Below, in pieces: positions 2,607 to 13,714 of a stretch of DNA of 22,695 nt. The notes below the pieces were generated by a model. The model was not told the DNA's origin and made no database searches. It worked only from the letters and a program-made list of their open reading frames with translations. The position numbers and the translations under genes were made by a program. How positions within the stretch are numbered: position 1 is the first letter of the stretch; each line of letters begins with the position of its first letter. The stretch lies in the IMG/VR virus record IMGVR_UViG_3300032805_000021, positions 1 through 22,695 of that record; one strand, 5' to 3'. This DNA is from a virus.

Positions 2607-4187
2607 ATGACGGTGCTGACGCCAGGGTTCGCGCTGCCAGCCGGAGACGAGTGGCGTAGCTGGCCCGTAGAGAAAAAGCGCAAGCTGCGCCGCAGGCTCG
2701 CCGCAGAGCGAGCCCGCCAGCGGATGCGCTTCTGGCGCCGTTATGCCCGTTACAAGCAGCTTCCCCCGGACGACCCGCGCCACGGCCTGGAGCAATGGCT
2801 GCCCGACGAGCGCGGCCAGATGCAGTATGTCTCTCCATGCCAGTGCCGTCTCCACGTGGAAGACGGCGGCTTGTGGACGCCGGACCAGGACTGGCTAATA
2901 TGGCTGATCATGTCAGGGCGGGGGTTCGGCAAGACGTGGGTCGGCTCGGCCTGGCTCGCTGAGCAGGCGCTCACGTTTCCTAACTCGGCCTGGGCCTGCA
3001 TCGGCCCGACCTACAGCGACACTCGCCGGATTTGTATCGAGGGCTCGACCGGCCTGATGCAGGCGTTCGCCAAGGAAGAGGTTGTCAACTACCGCCGGAA
3101 CGACCTGGAGATCGAGCTGGTCAACGGCTCCATCATCTACGGGTTCTCGGCCGACCGGCCCGACCGCACACGAGGCTCGAACCTGTGGGGCGCCTGGTGC
3201 GAGGAGCTTGGCTCGTGGCGCTATGAGGCGACCTGGCACGAGGGCCTGATGCCCGCTCTGCGGATTGGCGAGAAGCCACGGGTCGTCGTGACCACCACCC
3301 CGCGCGGGACCTCGCTGATGCGCGAGCTGGCCCAGCGCAGCGACGGTACTGTTCATATCACCCAGGGCTCGACATTCGAGAACGCTGGCAATCTGTCCGT
3401 GATCGCCCTGAGCGAGCTCAAGCGCCGGTACGGCGGTACCCGGATTGGCCGCCAGGAGCTTGAAGGCGAGCTTATCGCAGATGTCGAGGGCGCACTGTGG
3501 CGCCGTGCCTGGATCGAGCGCGGCAGGATCCCGGTCGGCCGCGACAACGAGGGCAACCTCATGTTGCCCGTCCTGCCCGACTTCACTCGCGTGGTAATCG
3601 GCATCGACCCCGCGACCACGAGCAAGAAGGAATCGGCCCTGTGGGGTATCGTCGTCGCGGCAATCACCGCAAACGGCCACTACTACGTGCTGGAGGACCT
3701 GAGCGAGAAGCTGACTCCGGGTCGCGCGATGCGAAAGGCGATCGCCGCCTACCACGACTGGAAAGCCGACCGCCTGGTCTGCGAAGTCAACAACGGTGGC
3801 GACTTCGTGGAAGAGCTGCTGCGCGTGTACGACGACGGCGTCAGCTACAAGTCGGTGACCGCGTCGCGAGGCAAGCAGACCCGAGCCGAGCCCGTATCCG
3901 CGCTGTACGAGAAAGACCCGGCGATAGCTCACCACGTGGGTGCGTTCCCGCAGCTCGAAGATCAGCTCACCACGTGGACGCCGCTCGACCCCGAGTCGCC
4001 CGACCGCCTAGACGCTCTGGTGTGGGCGCTGACCGAGCTAAGCCAGGGCTTCGACTGGACTTCGATGTACGGCAAGCCATACACCTGTCCCAAGTGCGAC
4101 CGCCTGTCGATCCTCATGCAGGGGCGGGACCGGTGCCCGCATTGCCACGAGCCGATCCCGCCCGGCTTGCTGCCTGAGGCTGCCTAG
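2607..4187 (+). CDS. terL: Terminase large subunit with extra C-terminal zinc ribbon
   Basis: A 526-aa DNA-packaging ATPase/nuclease that pumps phage DNA through the portal and cuts it. Walker A is GRGFGKT (104-110). Walker B with catalytic Glu is LWGAWCEE (193-200), and the coupling motif is VVVTTTPRG (226-234). The RNase H-like nuclease shows IGIDPATT (D334), EVNNGGDF (E393) and PDRLDALVWAL (D466/D469). The final 35 residues carry C494-x2-C497 and C510-x2-C513, a four-Cys zinc ribbon not part of the usual core. The first ATG is used: it has no ribosome binding site but stands 7 nt after an extended -10 box. No small terminase subunit is recognised nearby. Its stop codon overlaps that of the convergent 4184-4306 gene (cCTAGa). 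Confidence 0.95.
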   Translation: MTVLTPGFALPAGDEWRSWPVEKKRKLRRRLAAERARQRMRFWRRYARYKQLPPDDPRHGLEQWLPDERGQMQYVSPCQCRLHVEDGGLWTPDQDWLIWLIMSGRGFGKTWVGSAWLAEQALTFPNSAWACIGPTYSDTRRICIEGSTGLMQAFAKEEVVNYRRNDLEIELVNGSIIYGFSADRPDRTRGSNLWGAWCEELGSWRYEATWHEGLMPALRIGEKPRVVVTTTPRGTSLMRELAQRSDGTVHITQGSTFENAGNLSVIALSELKRRYGGTRIGRQELEGELIADVEGALWRRAWIERGRIPVGRDNEGNLMLPVLPDFTRVVIGIDPATTSKKESALWGIVVAAITANGHYYVLEDLSEKLTPGRAMRKAIAAYHDWKADRLVCEVNNGGDFVEELLRVYDDGVSYKSVTASRGKQTRAEPVSALYEKDPAIAHHVGAFPQLEDQLTTWTPLDPESPDRLDALVWALTELSQGFDWTSMYGKPYTCPKCDRLSILMQGRDRCPHCHEPIPPGLLPEAA

Positions 4188-4566: not shown

Positions 4567-4650
4567 CCAGGTTCGCGAGGGGACCTGGCGAGTCTCTAAC
4601 GTCACCCGTAGCCGGGCGGGTTGCCTGGAATGAAGCCGGGACGGGTGACG
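4567..4650 (+). ncRNA. Structured leader: three hairpins upstream of the tRNA-like element
   Basis: CCAGGT (4567-4572) pairs with ACCTGG (4583-4588). CGTCACCCGT (4600-4609) pairs perfectly over 10 bp with ACGGGTGACG (4641-4650). Inside that loop CCGGGC (4612-4617) pairs with GCCTGG (4623-4628). No reading frame with a ribosome binding site is visible across 4552-4828, so this stretch is probably RNA-level. GTGACGG (4645-4651) could alternatively pair with CCGTCAC (4765-4771) of the tRNA-like element, giving two exclusive folds. Confidence 0.5.
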
Positions 4651-4787
4651 GTGGCGTGTGGCAGAGTGGCCTAATGCGGGCGACAGCGACCAGTCTTGAT
4701 CCTCGCTGGAGCCGGGAGGCTGGCAGGGTGTGTGACTGGGCCAGCCCCCCCACGGGTTCGAATCCCGTCACGTCGCGAGGGACCTGG
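4573..4787. repeat. Direct repeat pair flanking the tRNA-like element
   Basis: TCGCGAGGGGACCTGG (4573-4588) and TCGCGAGGGACCTGG (4773-4787) differ by one G and lie 200 bp apart, bracketing the hairpins and the tRNA-like element. Each contains ACCTGG, able to pair with CCAGGT at 4567 or 4799. Confidence 0.6.
4652..4776 (+). tRNA. tRNA-like element, oversized (Ser-type cloverleaf with enlarged anticodon and variable arms)
   Basis: The acceptor TGGCGTG (4652-4658) pairs fully with CACGTCG (4769-4775), allowing two wobbles. The D-arm GCA-GAGTGGCCTAA-TGC (4661-4677) and the T-arm ACGGG-TTCGAAT-CCCGT (4752-4768) are textbook. Between D and T arms there are 74 nt instead of the ~35-45 of class II tRNAs. 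They fold as an extended arm (GGC, tandem GA/AG mismatch, CAGCGA/TCGCTG, 13-nt loop CCAGTCTTGATCC; 4679-4713) and a 7-bp GGCTGGC/GCCAGCC hairpin (4718-4746, 15-nt loop). The loop contains CTTGATC, which would put a UGA (Ser) anticodon after U33, but with U at position 37. CCA is not encoded. It may be a functional unusual tRNA, a decayed tRNA or a tRNA mimic. Confidence 0.55.
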
Positions 4788-4807
4788 GGCTGACCGCTCC
4801 AGGTCCC
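4779..4807 (+). terminator. GC hairpin after the tRNA-like element
   Basis: GGGACCTGG (4779-4787) pairs perfectly with CCAGGTCCC (4799-4807), 11-nt loop, starting 3 nt after the tRNA-like 3' end. Only a short TTTT follows, 15 nt later (4823-4826). It could end or process the RNA, or attenuate the genes downstream. Confidence 0.45.
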
Positions 4808-4828
4808 AGCCACTAGGAGGGGTTTTGA

Positions 4829-5062
4829 GTGAGCGCAGCGAAGATAGCCCAGTACCGCAAGGTGATAGCGGCGTTTCTGGGACAAGCCCTGACGTATGCG
4901 ACCCTGTGCTGGGGAAACGGGCCGGACGCCCGGTACGTCGCGATCGCCGTGGGAGTCGCCAGCGCGCTTGGCGTCTACGCCGTCCCAAACGCCTCATCCG
5001 GTTCAGCGGCGCCATCACCCACGGTCTCTTCGGCACCACCGTCCGCACCGAAGGCACCATAA
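4829..5062 (+). CDS. Holin-like small membrane protein with programmed-frameshift site
   Basis: A 77-aa protein with GTG start 5-7 nt after AGGAGGGG. Two hydrophobic segments (about 12-29 and 36-52) separated by a short charged turn, then a Ser/Pro/Ala tail. The core ending GVYAVPN resembles a widespread actinophage holin-like family. Codons 53-54 (CCA AAC, 4985-4990) with the preceding C form CCCAAAC, a canonical -1 slippery heptamer in the right phase. From exactly there, third-position G/C is high in the -1 frame and falls in this frame, so the Ser/Pro tail may be the minor or decoy end and a 162-residue frameshift product may be made (4829-5316). Confidence 0.75.
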   Translation: MSAAKIAQYRKVIAAFLGQALTYATLCWGNGPDARYVAIAVGVASALGVYAVPNASSGSAAPSPTVSSAPPSAPKAP

Positions 5063-5316
5063 GCACGGCGTCTTCACTCGGCCTGCTGCGGGGCCAGCAC
5101 GTTTGGCTGCAGCTCGACGACGAGACGATCAATGTGTTCGTCACCCACGTGGAAGGCGGCCGATTTGATTTCGTCTCCTGGCGCTGGTACGACCGGCTGC
5201 GCCCGGTCTACTGGCTGCGCCCGGTGCGGCGACTGCTGCAATCCTGTTGTTCTAAGCTTCGATGTCTTTACCGAGATCGGCCAGTATGCCCGCGTTGCCG
5301 AGGACCTTGGCCCTAA
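4990..5316 (+). CDS. Candidate -1 frameshift extension of the membrane protein
   Basis: This frame continues from the slippery heptamer CCCAAAC (4984-4990) for 108 codons (RLIRFSGAITHGLFGTT ... RGQHVWLQLDDETIN ... DFVSWRWYDRLRPVYWLRP). Codons to about 5240 have strongly G/C third positions, as expected of a real gene here, but there is no ATG or GTG with a ribosome binding site at its head. A TTG at 4825 and GTGs at 4909 and 5134 are the only alternatives. The Trp/Tyr/Arg-rich part looks like a beta domain on the cytoplasmic side of the membrane segments. The last ~25 codons overlap the YkgJ-like gene and look non-coding. It is either the product of programmed -1 frameshifting or a separate gene with an unusual start. 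Confidence 0.55.
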   Translation, partial: RLIRFSGAITHGLFGTTVRTEGTISTASSLGLLRGQHVWLQLDDETINVFVTHVEGGRFDFVSWRWYDRLRPVYWLRPVRRLLQSCCSKLRCLYRDRPVCPRCRGPWP

Positions 5317-5593
5317 CTACCGGTTCATTCCGCAGCACTGGCACCCGATCAGCGCCTACACCGACGAAAACGGCGAAGTCTGGCTCCGGCTGCGCTGTGA
5401 CGTGTTCGACCCGGACACCCTGACCTGTACCGCGTACGAGGACCGGCCGCCCGTGTGCAGCGACTTCCCCTGGTACGGCCAGGAGCCGGACAGCGTCAGG
5501 GCTCTGCACGACCGGTGCAGCTACTGGTTCGACATCCCTGCGGCTGACCGGCCCGCCCGTGCCCGGCCCCTGATCCCCCTGGAGGTTCTGTGA
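5132..5593 (+). CDS. YkgJ-family (CxxCC) zinc/iron-binding protein
   Basis: Up to 153 aa. The motif C32-GD-C35-C36-NPVVLS, then RCDVFDPDTLTC (C89, C99), RPPVCSDFPWYG (C109) and C129, matches the YkgJ/CxxCxxCC metal-chelating family, common in actinophages and of unknown chemistry. The start is uncertain: ATG 5132 has only a weak GACGAGA upstream; TTG 5165 has GGAAGGCGG. Either way the N-terminus overlaps the preceding -1 frame by 150 nt or more, so the true N-terminus may be close to C32 or may arise by another frame change near 5240. Its TGA overlaps the next GTG (GTGA). Confidence 0.7.
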   Translation: MCSSPTWKAADLISSPGAGTTGCARSTGCARCGDCCNPVVLSFDVFTEIGQYARVAEDLGPNYRFIPQHWHPISAYTDENGEVWLRLRCDVFDPDTLTCTAYEDRPPVCSDFPWYGQEPDSVRALHDRCSYWFDIPAADRPARARPLIPLEVL

Positions 5594-6762: not shown

Positions 6763-7055
6763 TGGCGACCGAGAACCACCGCGAGGGACTGATCCACCGG
6801 CTCAAGGTGGCCATCGAGTTGTGGGAGCGCGAGCTGCGAACGCTGAACCGGATGCACGAGGACGGGTTGCTGCCGACCTCGGTCTACGACAGCCAGAAGG
6901 TCCAGCTAGAGACCGAGCTGGCCGCGATGCAGGACACCGTCGAGCACCTGGAGAGGGGGGCGCTGAACTGCGGTCGGCCGTCCTCCACGTGGAAGGGCGG
7001 CCTTGCCGTATGCGGAAGGCTACTGATATACTCCGCCCATGAGGCGGCGCCTTGA
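6762..7055 (+). CDS. Small coiled-coil protein, related in plan to its neighbour
   Basis: A 97-aa protein (MATENHREGLIHRLKVAIEL...). ATG overlaps the previous stop (TAATG). Residues 6-65 form a helical hairpin (LWERELRTLNRMHEDGLLPT then QKVQLETELAAMQDTVEHLE), parallel to the plan of the 66-aa neighbour: a turn after 'EDG/ESG', then a second helix. The last ~30 residues (GALNCGRPSSTWKGGLAVCG...) are coded by DNA that also forms a hairpin and the P8 promoter, and overlap the next gene by 17 nt. Function unknown. Confidence 0.6.
   Translation: MATENHREGLIHRLKVAIELWERELRTLNRMHEDGLLPTSVYDSQKVQLETELAAMQDTVEHLERGALNCGRPSSTWKGGLAVCGRLLIYSAHEAAP
6976..7002 (+). other. Hairpin directly upstream of P8
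   Basis: GGCCGTCCTCC pairs with GGAAGGGCGGCC over 11 bp (one G-T wobble, one bulged A) around an ACGT tetraloop. It ends at the first base before the P8 -35 box. It could terminate upstream transcripts, but has no T-run. Confidence 0.35.
7003..7038 (+). promoter_or_regulatory. Promoter P8 abutting the 7039 start codon
   Basis: TTGCCG (7003-7008), 18 bp and TATACT (7027-7032), followed after 6 nt by ATG 7039. No ribosome binding site fits, so a leaderless transcript is likely. The promoter lies inside the end of the preceding gene. Confidence 0.55.
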
Positions 7056-7380
7056 GCTGCTGCTACCGGCGGTGCTGGTGGTCGCGGTGGTCATCCTGAT
7101 GGTCTATCTGGACCACACTTCCGCGACCTATCGATCGTTCTTCTCATGGCCTAATGGCTCGACCTGGAGCAATCTGATCGAGCAGGTAGAGGGCATCGTC
7201 ATCGGCGTGTTCCTCACCTGGTACCTGCGCGACCACATCGGCAAGAGCGTAGCTGCCTGGATGCACCGCAACAGCCCGGAGCGGCAGGAGATTCACCAGG
7301 CCAGCGTGGACGCTCTCCACGTGGTGGTCGACCTATACAGGTATGTGACCGGAGACGAGCACCCAAAGGCGCCACAATGA
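7039..7380 (+). CDS. Two-helix membrane protein, predicted leaderless
   Basis: A 113-aa protein (MRRRLELLLPAVLVVAVVIL...). Hydrophobic segments at about 6-24 and 48-64, joined by a loop with Trp and Ser (residues 25-47, probably outside). The N-terminus RRR and the post-membrane RDHIGKSVAAWMHR are positively charged, so both ends are probably cytoplasmic. A 45-residue helical tail follows. ATG is 6 nt after the P8 -10 box. Length and topology would fit a holin or a membrane anchor, but no family signature is seen. Ends ATGA into the next gene. Confidence 0.65.
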   Translation: MRRRLELLLPAVLVVAVVILMVYLDHTSATYRSFFSWPNGSTWSNLIEQVEGIVIGVFLTWYLRDHIGKSVAAWMHRNSPERQEIHQASVDALHVVVDLYRYVTGDEHPKAPQ

Positions 7381-7703
7381 CAAACCTGACGCCTGGACGG
7401 CGCGTGCAGTCGATGGCCGAGATCCAGCATCCCGGCGATTATTTTGGCCCGACGACCGACTTCACGGGTACCCCGGCTGTATTCTTTCTCAAGCCGAACG
7501 CTCGCAACCCGGACACCCCGCCGAGGGGACGGTCAGTCGGCCACGTCTGCTCTCCCCCGCACACGTTCCGCGAGTGTCCGGACGGCTCGCTGGAGATCCG
7601 GCCCAGCATCTCGGAGTACACTGCCAATAGCCCGCAGGCGCTCGAGTTCAGTGACGGCTGGCACGGCTGGCTGGACGAGGGCAACGTCTGGAGACAGGTC
7701 TAG
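7377..7703 (+). CDS. DUF6527-like small protein
   Basis: A 108-aa protein (MTNLTPGRRVQSMAEIQHPG...). ATG overlaps the upstream TGA. The C-terminal half (HVCSPPHTFRECPDGSLEIR, ISEYT, SDGWHGWLDEGNVWR) resembles small phage and bacterial proteins of the DUF6527 type, where a Cys/His-containing beta domain ends in GWHG-L-DG-W. The resemblance is from memory of the pattern and not tested. Its TAG overlaps the portal-fusion GTG (TAGTG), placing it in the same transcript as the head genes. Confidence 0.6.
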   Translation: MTNLTPGRRVQSMAEIQHPGDYFGPTTDFTGTPAVFFLKPNARNPDTPPRGRSVGHVCSPPHTFRECPDGSLEIRPSISEYTANSPQALEFSDGWHGWLDEGNVWRQV

Positions 7704-10700
7704 TGGCAACTGACCCGACCGCTGTTATCGCGGCGATCAAGCGGACACGCGTCAAGAACGAGGTCCGCAAGCGGGTCAGCCCGCTCATGGCGCAGTACCA
7801 GGAGTGGACCGCCGGGCGCCCTGTCGGCCGCGACCTGCCGCGCGATCCGTACGAGTTTCTGCAGGCCCAGTTCGGCCCGCTCGCGCCGATCCAGGCGATG
7901 CCGCTGAACCCGCCCCTGGAAGGCGACCAGCGCGGCGCCCTGAGGCAGCGCGAGATGCCGGTCGGCTGGAACATGCCGGTCGGCGTGCCCGGGTCGGAAG
8001 GCTTCAAGCTTGCCAGTTTCGGCACCTTGCGGATGTACGCCGACCTGTACTCGGTGAGCCGGGCCTGCCTGCAGGTTCGCAAGAACGAGATCCGTGGCCT
8101 GGAGTGGGATATCGTCCCTACCCAGGAGGCCGAACGTGCGATGCGCGGGGACCAGAAGGCACACCGCGACTTCGCTGAGCGGCGAGCCAAGGTGGTCGCG
8201 TTCTTCCGCAAGCCCGACCCCGACTACAACAAATTCGGGAGCTGGATCGACGCCGTCTGCGAGGAGATGTTCTCGATTGACGGCCTGTCGCTGTACCTGC
8301 ACCCCACGAAGAAAAAGCACGGCGGTCCGTTCAACAGCGATGTCGCCGCGCTGGAGCTGATTGCTGGCCATACGGTCCGGCCCCTGGTCAACACCCGGGG
8401 CGGCATCCCCAAGCCACCTAACCCGGCCTACCAGCAGTACCTATACGGCGTTCCCCGCGTGGACCTGATGACGCTGATCTCAGGCCAGGACGAGGACATT
8501 CTTAAAGACTGCAAGCCCCTGGAGCAGTACCGGGGCGACCAGCTTATGTACCTGCCTTACACCGCTCGCTCGTGGACGCCGTACGGCTTCCCGCCCCTGG
8601 AGCGGTCGATTATCCCGACCATCACGGGCCTGCGCAAGCAGCAGTTCCAGATGGACTTCTTCGACGAGGGCACGATCCCCGGGAACTACATCAGCCCCGG
8701 CGAGCAGCTCGGCTGGACCCCGAACCAGCTTGAGCAGTGGCAGAACCAGCAGAACGCTCTCGCGGGCGACCCCGCGTGGAAGCACAAGAGCATCGCCCTG
8801 CCGCCCGGCTCCAAGGTGTTCCCGATGCGTCCCGTGGAACTAGCTGACCAGTTCGACGAGATCGTAATGACCCAGATCTGCATGGCGTTCGACGTGATGC
8901 CGATGGAGCTGGGGATCTCGCCCCGGGTGAGCACGACGCAATCACCTGGCGCTGCGAACCAGATGGCTAAGGCCAGCCAGGACACCAACGAGCGCAAGAG
9001 CCTCAAGCCGACTCTGGCTTTCCTGGTCGATATCTTCAACACCCTCATCCAGGACGTCTGGGACCAGAAGGACATGCGGTTCATGTTCGAGGGCCTGGAG
9101 GAGGACAAGGACGAGACCGAGCTGGTATCTCGCCTGGTCCAGATGATCCAGAACGGCCTGGCCACGATCGACGAGAGCCGGATCGCCCTGGGCAAGAGCC
9201 CGTACGGCCTGCCGATCACCAGCGATCCCGTGTTTGTCAGCCCGACCGCTGGCATGGTGCCACTCGGCTCGATCGACCCGACTACCGGCAAGCCACTCGG
9301 CATTCCCCCGCCCCCTGCCGTGGGCGCTCCGCCTGCTCCTGGTGGCGGTGGTCCCCCGGGAGCCCCGGGAGGGCCTCCGAAGCCAGCGCTGCCGCCGGGC
9401 GGCCAGACACCCCCGGGCGCAACTCCGAAGCTCGGGGAAGCCAAGCCGGAGCCGGGGAAGGCCCCTCCCGGCCAGCAGGCCCCCGGCCCGGACGCTCCGC
9501 CCCCGCCCGATCCCAAGGACCAGGCCCACCAGGACGCTCAGGCCGAACACCAGCGCACCATCCAGGAGACTCACAACGCGCTGCGCGAGCAGATCCACTC
9601 GGATTTCGCCGCAGGCAAGCCGGTAGAGCCTCCTGTCCGGCCGCCGATCAGCGACGCAGCCGACACCGACCACCACGAGGCCAGCACGGCGGTCAAGACA
9701 GTCGATGGGACGGTGAGCTACAGCCCGGCCGCTGTCCGCGCGGAGCTGGCCGCCCTGCTGCGCCACATGAACAAGGGCCGGAACCCGTCCACGTGGGAAT
9801 ATAAGCACGTCCCCTCGTGGATGCAGGCCGAAATCGCCAAGGGCGCAGCGCTGGGCACGACCGAGTTCGTTATCGCTACCATGGTCGAATTCGCAGCAGA
9901 CCGGATCCGCCCCGGCTCGCACAAAGCGGCTTCCGCCAGTGATGCTGGCCCAAAAGCTGGGACGAGTACGAGGGACTGGCCCGGATGGAGGTATGACCGC
10001 CAGCTCTCCGCCCTGTACGGTCCGCTCCTGAACGGGGCGATCAGCGGTGTCGTTGACATCAACGATCTGGTCGCAGGCTGGCGCCAGCAGACCAACCTGC
10101 CAATCGCTCTGGCCCGGGGACCAAAGCCAGCGAGCGAGGGTGCCTGGTCGTGGCTGAGTGCCAGACTGTTTGGTCCGCTCCAGGCGGCCATCCACAGGGT
10201 GTTGACGAACCTGTGGACGGAGGGCTTTGCTGTAGGGCGTGAGGCAGGCCGGGAGATGGTTGACTCGGCCTACAACTCCACGTTCTGGGACAACTGGCAG
10301 CCAGGAGACGCGGCTGCTGCGGCCAAAGTCGCGGGCGACGGCTTGCAGCGAATGCTCGACGAGTATGGCATCCCCACCATCAAGGCGATCGCACAGACGC
10401 GGATGACGCAGCTTGCCGACGCGCTTGCCGTGGGCGTGGACCAGGGCTGGAGCGGCCAGCAGATAGCCGACTCGATCCGGCCGATTCTGGACAACAAGCA
10501 GCGCGACCAGATGATCGCAGACACCGAGCTAGCTCGCGCTACCAGCCGCGCCAGCCAGGACGCCTACGTCGAGGCAGGCCAGACCGGCAAGTCGTGGGCC
10601 ACGGCCAAGGACGACCGTGTCTGTCCGGAGTGCAAGCAGAACGCCGAGGAAGGTGTTATCCCGATCGCTGGGGTGTTCGATTCCGGCGTTCCGGCTCCAC

Positions 10701-13700
10701 CAGCTCACCCCGGCCCCTGCCGCTGCGCCCTGCTCCCCGGCCATCTGCCAGCCGACCAGCGACCCCTGGCCCTGAAAGTCGGTCCTCACGGTTATGTTCA
10801 CGGCTGGCACTTCGAGGGAGTGCCTGACGCGCAGAGCCATCTTGCCCGGTCCGAGAAGTCGGGAATACGGGACGTCCAGGACCTGACCGGTGGCAAGCAG
10901 GCAACGACCAAGCTGGTCACGTACAACGACGGTAGCCGGTGGGTACACAAGGACTTTCACCAGCCTGCCACGGCAGGCGACCGCGTGCGAGGAACCGACG
11001 ACCTAGCAAACAGCGAAGAGGCTGCTTCGCTGGTAGCTCAGGCAGTGGGTGCCCGGTCTCCAGTCGTCGTCCGTACTGGGCGAAACTCTGTAGCGATGCC
11101 GTATGTTTCCAATGCTGGCACGTACAAAGACAAGCCGATGCCTAGCGACCGGCATATTGGGCTGCTCGACGGGCTGACAGCTAACAACGACCGGAACGAA
11201 GGAAATCTGCTAGCCACCCCTGACGGGCCGGTGGCTATCGACCACAGCGAGACGTGGCGGCACCCGGGCGGCCGATGGGAGGTAGGCAGCAAGCTAGCCA
11301 GCAGGCTGCAGCCGGGCGACTTCTCCAAGTCAGAGATGGACCGTATTGGTGAGCGCTTGGAGGCACTGCGCCCAGAGTTCGAACGGATATTCGGCGGCAC
11401 GCAGCAGCACGACGGCACGATGCGCGCATACAACCTGGTCGGTAGGTCGCTTGTTAAGCCCGCAACTAAAGCGCTCAAGTCGGACGGGCCAATCGCGGCT
11501 GGGCTCGCCGTCCACGCGGAGGAGACCAGCCGGGTGCTGATGATCCAGCGCGCATTCGACGAGAACGATCCGGCCGGGGGGCAGTGGGAGTTCCCGGGCG
11601 GACGGCTGGACGGCGACGAGACACCGGTCGAGGCAGCTACCCGCGAATGGCACGAGGAGACCGGCCTCGACGTCCCGCCCGGCAAGATCCGTCTGGGCTG
11701 GACCAGCAATGACGGCAAGTACCAGGGCTATGTCCTGGACGTCGCGACCGAGGACGCCTGCCCGATCCTGGACCGCGTCAAGGGCGCAAACCCCGACGAC
11801 CCGGACAACGACGAGACTGAGGCCCTGGCGTGGGTCGATCCGGATCACATCCGCGACAAGAACCCGATGGTCCGCGACGAGCTGATTGCCCACCCCAAGC
11901 GGGTCGCTCGCGCGCTCAAGTCGCTAGGCACGCTGGGTCGGATGGCGGCTTCTCTCCACGTGGATGCGCGGACGGTTTACGACCAGCTAGCCCAGAACTA
12001 CCCGCCCAAGTCGATCGAGTGGGTGCTGCGGGCGAGATGGCGTGGCCCGATGCTGGTCGGCTGGAATATGATCGACCACGACGACATGGACAAGTGGGCG
12101 GCCAGCCACCAGCCCGAGCGGGTCGATCACTTCGTGGACAAGATCAAGGCGGGCGATGACCCGCATCCGGCTATTCTGGTGCACGACCCGGACGGGAACT
12201 GGATCGACGTAGACGGCCACCACCGCGCCCTGGCCTACCACAAGCTGAATAGGCCAGTCCGCTCGTACTGCGGAGTCATCGACCCCGCCGACCGGCACGC
12301 CATGGAAGAGACCCATCTCGACCAGGTTCACGAGGGGAACGACCCGCTGAACAAGGTCGGTCCTCACGGCTACATTCATGGCTGGCACTACGTCGGCCCC
12401 GACAAAGCTAACGACGTGATCGAAGCAGTAAACGCTAGCTATCCGGGTACCTGGCGTGAAGGCGTCAAAGATGCCAAGACCGAAACAGTACCGCTAGCCG
12501 ATCTCGGTTCCCTGCACGACCGCCTTGACGCTGGTACGGTCAGTAACTACCGGTCCCGACTCCAGAACGGCGAGGACTTCGATCCCGCTGTGGCTGTCAA
12601 GAAAGACGGCAGTTACTACTTGATAGACGGAAACCACCGGGCTGCTGCCGCAGCAGAAGAGGGTCGGACGCATCTGAGGGTCAGAACTATCAACCTGGAC
12701 ACTGGTGTGGCCAACAAGGCAGCGGTGGACGGCCATCACGTCCCGGGCACGCCGTACACTTACCGGCACGGCTGGCACTTGCTCGACCCGGCGGACCGCG
12801 TCGCGGCTGGCGTCACAGACACCAGAGCCATGCACCGCACCGGCAGCGACTACACCGACGAGCGCAAGGCACTGCACAAGAAGATCGTTGACGACATCCT
12901 GGCGGGACACAAGCCAGAGGCTCACCCCGTGGCCGAGTTCCTGGGCGGCGGCCCGGCAAGCGGCAAGAGCAGTCTGGGCGAATCTCACTCCGGCGCTGTC
13001 ATCGACGTGGACGCGATCCGGACCAAGCTTCCCGAGTACCAGCAGATGCTCGACAACGGCGACTCGACTGCTGCCGCGTTTACGCACGAGGAAAGCAGCG
13101 AGATCAGCAAGATGGCCCAGGACGAGGCCAGGCGCAGGCACATCAGCTACACCCTCGACGGCACCGGAGATGCGAGCTACGAGAAGATGCGGGTCAAGCT
13201 GGCGCAGGCCAAGGCGGCTGGCTACACGACCCGGGGCCGGTATGTCACCGTAGACACGGACGAAGCAGTCAGGCGGGCGAACAAGCGCGCAGAGCGGACC
13301 GGCCGGGTGGTGCCTGAGTCGTTCCTGCGTGAGACTCACAAGAACGTGACCTCTACTTACCATCACCTGATCAACCACGACGACTTCGACGAGACCGAGC
13401 TGTGGGACAACACCGGCAGTAAGCCCGTGCTGGTCGGCCGTAAGCCTCTCGGCGGACAATGGGGGGTCGAAAATCCCGGAGCATGGGAGCGTTTCCTGAA
13501 AAAGGAACATGAGCAAGGTGCTGCCAAGGCAGCGGACGACGGCGAGATTGCTTACCGGCTGCTGATCGCAGCGGCTGGCCACCTGCCATTCCCAGCCGAT
13601 CAGGTGCCCGATACGGCGGCGAATATGTTGCGGTTCGCACAGTATCAGCTCGAAGTTGCGCGGGTGCCTCACGGCGCAGTGGTTGACGTACCTCACGAGT

Positions 13701-13714
13701 ACGTGCTGGATTGA
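7703..13714 (+). CDS. Giant portal-MuF fusion with kinase-like, Nudix, two ParB/Srx-like and zeta-kinase domains
   Basis: 2003 aa, GTG start overlapping the previous stop, GGAGACAGG upstream. Residues 1-525 are an actinophage portal protein (VSRACLQVRKNEIRGLEW; LMYLPYTARSWTPYGFPPLE). A Pro/Gly linker (about 533-612) leads to a MuF domain (about 800-1012; TELARATSRASQ, C974-PE-C977, HPGPCRC 1002-1008). K1025-W1035 is the first KVGPHGYVHGW element. A PI3/4-kinase-like domain follows (K1083, D1163-RNEGN, D1180-H). Nudix: a complete box at 1300-1322 (GX5EX7REWXEEXGL). ParB/sulfiredoxin-like domain 1: DGHHR 1504-1508. Second linker element from K1551, then ParB-like domain 2: DGNHR 1642-1646. A degenerate element (YRHGWH, 1687-1692) precedes a zeta-toxin-like kinase (GGGPASGKSS 1748-1757, DVDAIR 1768-1773, DGTGD), then a ~90-residue tail. 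Portal, MuF, Nudix and zeta calls are firm; the kinase-like call is moderate. The frame is uninterrupted. Confidence 0.9.
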   Translation: MATDPTAVIAAIKRTRVKNEVRKRVSPLMAQYQEWTAGRPVGRDLPRDPYEFLQAQFGPLAPIQAMPLNPPLEGDQRGALRQREMPVGWNMPVGVPGSEGFKLASFGTLRMYADLYSVSRACLQVRKNEIRGLEWDIVPTQEAERAMRGDQKAHRDFAERRAKVVAFFRKPDPDYNKFGSWIDAVCEEMFSIDGLSLYLHPTKKKHGGPFNSDVAALELIAGHTVRPLVNTRGGIPKPPNPAYQQYLYGVPRVDLMTLISGQDEDILKDCKPLEQYRGDQLMYLPYTARSWTPYGFPPLERSIIPTITGLRKQQFQMDFFDEGTIPGNYISPGEQLGWTPNQLEQWQNQQNALAGDPAWKHKSIALPPGSKVFPMRPVELADQFDEIVMTQICMAFDVMPMELGISPRVSTTQSPGAANQMAKASQDTNERKSLKPTLAFLVDIFNTLIQDVWDQKDMRFMFEGLEEDKDETELVSRLVQMIQNGLATIDESRIALGKSPYGLPITSDPVFVSPTAGMVPLGSIDPTTGKPLGIPPPPAVGAPPAPGGGGPPGAPGGPPKPALPPGGQTPPGATPKLGEAKPEPGKAPPGQQAPGPDAPPPPDPKDQAHQDAQAEHQRTIQETHNALREQIHSDFAAGKPVEPPVRPPISDAADTDHHEASTAVKTVDGTVSYSPAAVRAELAALLRHMNKGRNPSTWEYKHVPSWMQAEIAKGAALGTTEFVIATMVEFAADRIRPGSHKAASASDAGPKAGTSTRDWPGWRYDRQLSALYGPLLNGAISGVVDINDLVAGWRQQTNLPIALARGPKPASEGAWSWLSARLFGPLQAAIHRVLTNLWTEGFAVGREAGREMVDSAYNSTFWDNWQPGDAAAAAKVAGDGLQRMLDEYGIPTIKAIAQTRMTQLADALAVGVDQGWSGQQIADSIRPILDNKQRDQMIADTELARATSRASQDAYVEAGQTGKSWATAKDDRVCPECKQNAEEGVIPIAGVFDSGVPAPPAHPGPCRCALLPGHLPADQRPLALKVGPHGYVHGWHFEGVPDAQSHLARSEKSGIRDVQDLTGGKQATTKLVTYNDGSRWVHKDFHQPATAGDRVRGTDDLANSEEAASLVAQAVGARSPVVVRTGRNSVAMPYVSNAGTYKDKPMPSDRHIGLLDGLTANNDRNEGNLLATPDGPVAIDHSETWRHPGGRWEVGSKLASRLQPGDFSKSEMDRIGERLEALRPEFERIFGGTQQHDGTMRAYNLVGRSLVKPATKALKSDGPIAAGLAVHAEETSRVLMIQRAFDENDPAGGQWEFPGGRLDGDETPVEAATREWHEETGLDVPPGKIRLGWTSNDGKYQGYVLDVATEDACPILDRVKGANPDDPDNDETEALAWVDPDHIRDKNPMVRDELIAHPKRVARALKSLGTLGRMAASLHVDARTVYDQLAQNYPPKSIEWVLRARWRGPMLVGWNMIDHDDMDKWAASHQPERVDHFVDKIKAGDDPHPAILVHDPDGNWIDVDGHHRALAYHKLNRPVRSYCGVIDPADRHAMEETHLDQVHEGNDPLNKVGPHGYIHGWHYVGPDKANDVIEAVNASYPGTWREGVKDAKTETVPLADLGSLHDRLDAGTVSNYRSRLQNGEDFDPAVAVKKDGSYYLIDGNHRAAAAAEEGRTHLRVRTINLDTGVANKAAVDGHHVPGTPYTYRHGWHLLDPADRVAAGVTDTRAMHRTGSDYTDERKALHKKIVDDILAGHKPEAHPVAEFLGGGPASGKSSLGESHSGAVIDVDAIRTKLPEYQQMLDNGDSTAAAFTHEESSEISKMAQDEARRRHISYTLDGTGDASYEKMRVKLAQAKAAGYTTRGRYVTVDTDEAVRRANKRAERTGRVVPESFLRETHKNVTSTYHHLINHDDFDETELWDNTGSKPVLVGRKPLGGQWGVENPGAWERFLKKEHEQGAAKAADDGEIAYRLLIAAAGHLPFPADQVPDTAANMLRFAQYQLEVARVPHGAVVDVPHEYVLD

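Follow-up and report, generated by a model that had tools for sequence, protein, structure and literature searches.

Genes and heptamers between the terminase and the portal

The stretch of DNA analyzed here, referred to as the window, is the full 22,695-base virus record IMGVR_UViG_3300032805_000021. The locus of interest lies between the terminase (2607-4187) and the portal gene (7703-13714) and consists of gene A, a coding-like segment B in the -1 frame, and gene C, all on the + strand. Gene A (4829-5062) encodes a 77-aa DUF7439-like (holin-like) membrane protein, and its start codon GTG 4829 lies 8 nt downstream of the Shine-Dalgarno (SD) sequence AGGAGG (4815-4820; duplex energy -10.7 kcal/mol). 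Upstream of gene A, a tRNA-like stretch was observed at 4640-4790 (GTTCGAATCC, acceptor-like ends), for which ARAGORN makes no call.

The product of gene A matched the membrane protein family PHROG 17495 (E=5.4e-7) and scored 23.2 bits (E=7e-5) against PF24220 (DUF7439), below the Pfam gathering cut-off of 27 bits. With the PHROG match, gene A counts as a likely relative of DUF7439 and no more. It resembles both families in its length, its hydrophobic segment and its terminal GVYAVPN, but it differs from them in falling below the Pfam cut-off, in its longer tail, and in having B after it in the -1 frame. Gene A is 57% identical to one relative (L001), and its C-terminus consists of GVYAVPN followed by a 23-residue Ser/Ala/Pro-rich tail. 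Among 31 distinct family members gathered through the GVYAVPN motif, the protein ends 1 to 23 codons past VPN in 30 and 118 codons past it in one, and the tail of gene A is longer than that of 29 of the 31. Since the relatives end soon after VPN, B starts exactly at the end of the conserved domain of gene A. Our literature search found no paper on DUF7439 or on frameshifting in a phage holin.

The heptamer CCCAAAC at 4984-4990, the sole copy on the + strand of the window, encodes the conserved VPN of gene A. Read from GTG 4829, its codons are GTC|CCA|AAC, which places C_CCA_AAC in the X_XXY_YYZ phase ahead of the 0-frame stop, as expected of a programmed -1 frameshift site and as the first-pass annotation had stated. 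Heptamers of this form are in phase at 5 of the 6180 codon positions across the genes of the window, and under the codon usage of the phage the probability of GTC CCA AAC given Val-Pro-Asn is 0.052. A second in-phase heptamer, G_GGA_AAC (4912-4918, + strand), lies within the 77 codons of gene A, and codon usage shows no sign of -1-frame coding after it.

Gene C (5165-5593) is in the frame of A and belongs to the CxxCxxCC (PF03692) metal-chelating proteins, with 34.8 bits against a cut-off of 23 and the Cys motif CARCGDCC; it is a neighbor of B, not part of it. Both codon usage and a phage relative favor TTG 5165 over ATG 5132 as its start: in the relative, from an Alicyclobacillus phage, the start lies 4 codons before the tblastn match, at the Cys motif. 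The sequence GGAAGG (5151-5156, + strand), 8 nt before TTG 5165, is the likely SD of gene C (site energy -6.5 kcal/mol).

In L140 and L141, the relatives closest by portal (72-76% identity), A, B, C and D are all missing between the terminase and gene E, where other genes are found instead, and two terminase relatives at 40-51% identity (L002 and L003) have no A-C downstream. On this comparison of gene content, the stretch from the terminase to gene E is a variable, mosaic region. A DUF2786 gene (1505-2683, - strand) is located upstream of the terminase in the window, whereas L140 and L141 have it on the downstream side, a rearrangement of the gene order at the terminase. Closer to the portal, C_CCA_AAG at 7362-7368, a strong slippery heptamer in E. 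coli, is in phase within another membrane-protein gene (7039-7380), five codons from its end, and the next gene (7377-7703) is in the -1 frame with an ATGA overlap; the AAAGG in this heptamer region also resembles an SD of the downstream gene, and L140 and L141 end this membrane-protein gene differently. In the 2003-aa ORF at 7703-13714, portal, MuF, NUDIX, weak ParB-like and zeta-toxin domains are combined, and VGPHGYxHGW motifs recur between the parts; the set varies in the counterparts from L140 (2406 aa) and L141 (1280 aa).

Coding signal and predicted fold of segment B

A codon model trained on twelve clear genes of the window placed the best change points from frame 0 to the -1 frame at 4992-4995 and back to frame 0 at about 5226-5241, and a six-frame codon-usage path that was given no information about the site recovered a -1 segment at 4991-5226. 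Both analyses agree with the earlier claim that the coding frame changes to -1 at the heptamer, and the return point matches the claimed end of -1 coding at about 5240. What has to be corrected is the continuation: past about 5240, coding switches back to the frame of A and now belongs to gene C, and after 5242 it is frame 0, not the -1 frame, that is coding-like. In segment B (4990-5316, stop 5314-5316), the coding-like part extends from about 4990 to about 5240, and the last 25 codons are not coding-like. The product sizes given in the first-pass annotation, 77 and 162 residues, are correct.

Over 4990-5214 (75 codons), the -1 frame scored +17.2, close to in-frame windows (mean 20.7, sd 8.7) and above the maximum of -9.5 among 848 out-of-frame windows, while none of the 1272 reverse-frame windows reached this score. 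Segment B has full-strength codon bias and no internal stop. A by-product of overlapping frames could in principle imitate such a signal without B being coding, given that the Ser/Ala/Pro codons of frame 0 place C at -1 third positions, but when the tail of gene A was recoded with normal codons the observed -1 score was reached in 0.06% of draws, and the signal runs 160 bases beyond the stop of gene A, which makes a non-coding B very improbable. Considering synonymous choices only, bases 4991-5059 read in the -1 frame depart from random (P=0.0001), and the tail of gene A read in frame 0 over the same bases is unlike coding DNA (P=0.0002). Together with the recoding, these tests indicate that coding in the -1 frame begins at the heptamer, and not just past the stop of A. 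We conclude that B looks like genuine protein-coding DNA.

The frame path from 0 to -1 and back to 0, with no start for B, would also fit a single polypeptide spanning A, B and C, in which the frame was lost and then regained through two indels or two shifts. Gene C comes with an SD and a TTG start of its own, and its phage relative starts at the Cys motif, so that C needs no frameshift; in addition, the DUF7439 relatives end after VPN. A continuous A-B-C product is thus highly unlikely.

No significant homolog of B was found in a peptide scan of viral contigs, by tblastn against phages up to E=10, or in genome contigs and plasmids, and comparison with Pfam, PHROGs and NCBIfam also gave nothing significant. 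A match in L062 (E=0.06) was rejected as chance, as it falls inside a 569-aa ORF in other sequence. Single-sequence AlphaFold2 modeling of B returned a five-stranded beta domain (pLDDT 66.3, pTM 0.55), which suggests that B may form a folded domain. The first two of the five strands fall inside 4990-5058, and a shorter model from 5059 on reached 60.9 compared with 66.3 for the whole -1 segment, a difference that is not decisive. Foldseek searches with the model against PDB and BFVD gave no match at E<=0.001, and the best VIA-align Z of 5.4 is in the range of common arrangements, a result that identifies no known fold and does not establish a new one.

Possible frameshifting and alternative starts

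The first-pass annotation had interpreted the locus as programmed -1 frameshifting at C_CCA_AAC with two products. Most ribosomes would then make the 77-aa protein, and a few would slip to produce the 162-residue form, which carries B as a soluble domain. Part of this interpretation holds, in that codon usage supports coding in the -1 frame past the heptamer. In favor of frameshifting, the heptamer sits exactly at the modeled frame change, in-phase heptamers are rare, B has no good start, and -1 coding begins ahead of the stop of A rather than at it. The label "canonical" fits eukaryotic sites, but AAC-ending heptamers shift poorly in E. coli, because re-pairing from AAC to AAA is badly tolerated by the bacterial ribosome, and the combination of a heterogeneous AAC with a pyrimidine X and A is a weak heptamer type (PMC4066793). 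In the same study, frameshift-prone motifs without a stimulator reached 2.1 to 10 times a background of about 0.055%, and all 64 motifs stayed at or below about 10 times this background (PMC4066793).

Neither of the stimulators looked for, a downstream structure or an upstream SD-like element, which are not universal in bacteria, was found at the heptamer. Folds of 60-100 nt downstream gave z values of 0.2 to -1.1, no better than shuffles, and the 60-nt minimum free energy after the heptamer is weaker than that of 89% of the contig, in line with the earlier remark that there was no clear downstream pseudoknot; no SD-like element occurs close upstream. As to conservation of the heptamer among GVYAVPN homologs, proposed earlier as a check, CCCAAAC is absent from all 31 (distant) family members, two further members, L105 and L109 (GVYQVPN), carry it with just a 15-codon -1 extension and no -1 domain, and none of the relatives found has B. 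With the heptamer itself a 5% outcome of codon choice, programmed frameshifting appears an unlikely explanation for B, although it ranks second among the readings considered.

The tail assembly chaperone G/GT of the lambda type offers a comparison, as here too an in-phase X_XXY_YYZ heptamer lies toward the 3' end of a short phage gene and the -1 extension lacks a good start. Unlike G/GT, the gene at this locus encodes a membrane protein near the terminase and does not lie just upstream of a tape measure gene, and its heptamer is weak, without a stimulator and with no conservation seen in the distant family members. It is doubtful that -1 frameshifting in this holin-like gene yields a minor variant of the membrane protein with a soluble beta domain, which would make it a frameshift-regulated membrane protein, unlike G/GT.

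The other route to a B product is translation from a start of its own. The earlier statement that the -1 frame has no conventional start does not fully hold, as it missed TTG 4825 (4825-4827, + strand) behind AGGAGG, which opens the B frame without a frameshift. The SD of gene A would be shared, at a short spacing of 4 nt, and the frame is open from TTG 4825 through 5316 (163 codons), so that the -1 frame, coding past the heptamer, also contains a start with an SD. A dual start on the ribosome-binding site of A is opposed by the -1 frame over 4828-4989, which is Arg-rich and not coding-like (P<0.0001 under coding). Further along the same frame, GTG 4906 and GTG 5134 have no good ribosome-binding site. 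Near-cognate restart, for example at ATA 5059 (5059-5061, + strand), which overlaps the stop of A (ATAA) and could be a non-standard restart site, would have GAAGG (5050-5054) upstream, but this SD is weak (-2.6 kcal/mol), and 4990-5058 is already coding-like in the -1 frame before ATA is reached. Initiation within the -1 frame by either means is also improbable, and we place it third, after frameshifting.

Origin of segment B and implications

The reading that we place first, at a little under even confidence, is that B is protein-coding DNA cut off from a start, either truncated at its 5' end or broken in frame, and not a programmed product. Gene A would be intact up to its conserved GVYAVPN end, and B may have been joined to its 3' end via mosaic recombination or split off by an indel of one base that arose either in the virus or during assembly; we infer one of these, recombination or an indel, as the cause of the frame break. 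Gene A would then be translated normally, its 23-residue tail being an out-of-frame reading of B, gene C would be translated from its own TTG 5165, and B would probably be translated little or not at all.

Several observations argue for a truncated or broken B. The conserved VPN alone yields the heptamer by a codon choice of about 5%, and because the B signal starts where the conserved domain of A ends, the position of the junction needs no slippage site. The tail codons of A resemble non-coding DNA, B is an orphan, and B lacks a near start, in which it stands alone among the forward coding segments longer than about 110 bases on the contig, all others having a start codon nearby. The apparent variability of the region, with the A-B-C block absent from the nearest relatives, is also consistent with this origin. 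According to a survey of frame transitions in prokaryotes, about one third of the unclustered orphans should be overlapping genes, and indels or sequencing errors would make up the remainder (PMC3711429). The present locus resembles such orphan singletons in being a single case whose second frame has no homolog and no stimulator, but it differs from them in having a slippery heptamer at the junction.

The placement of the heptamer right at the junction counts against a truncated or broken B, as does the plausible beta-domain model that the -1 segment gives as a whole, with the part ahead of the stop of A included, although the part past that stop by itself also reaches 61. The absence of internal stops and the full-strength codon bias imply that any break would have to be recent, and the six-frame path revealed no other frame break in the contig. 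Overall, an ordinary broken or patched-together gene explains B about as well as frameshifting, or better.

If frameshifting were true, -1 recoding in phages would reach beyond tail chaperones and include the gene of a membrane protein that may be related to lysis. On the present evidence, the locus illustrates how codon choice for a conserved peptide, VPN, can give rise to a heptamer that looks slippery, exactly at the position where homologs end, and such a VPN-derived heptamer at the end of a gene is a trap for frameshift searches.
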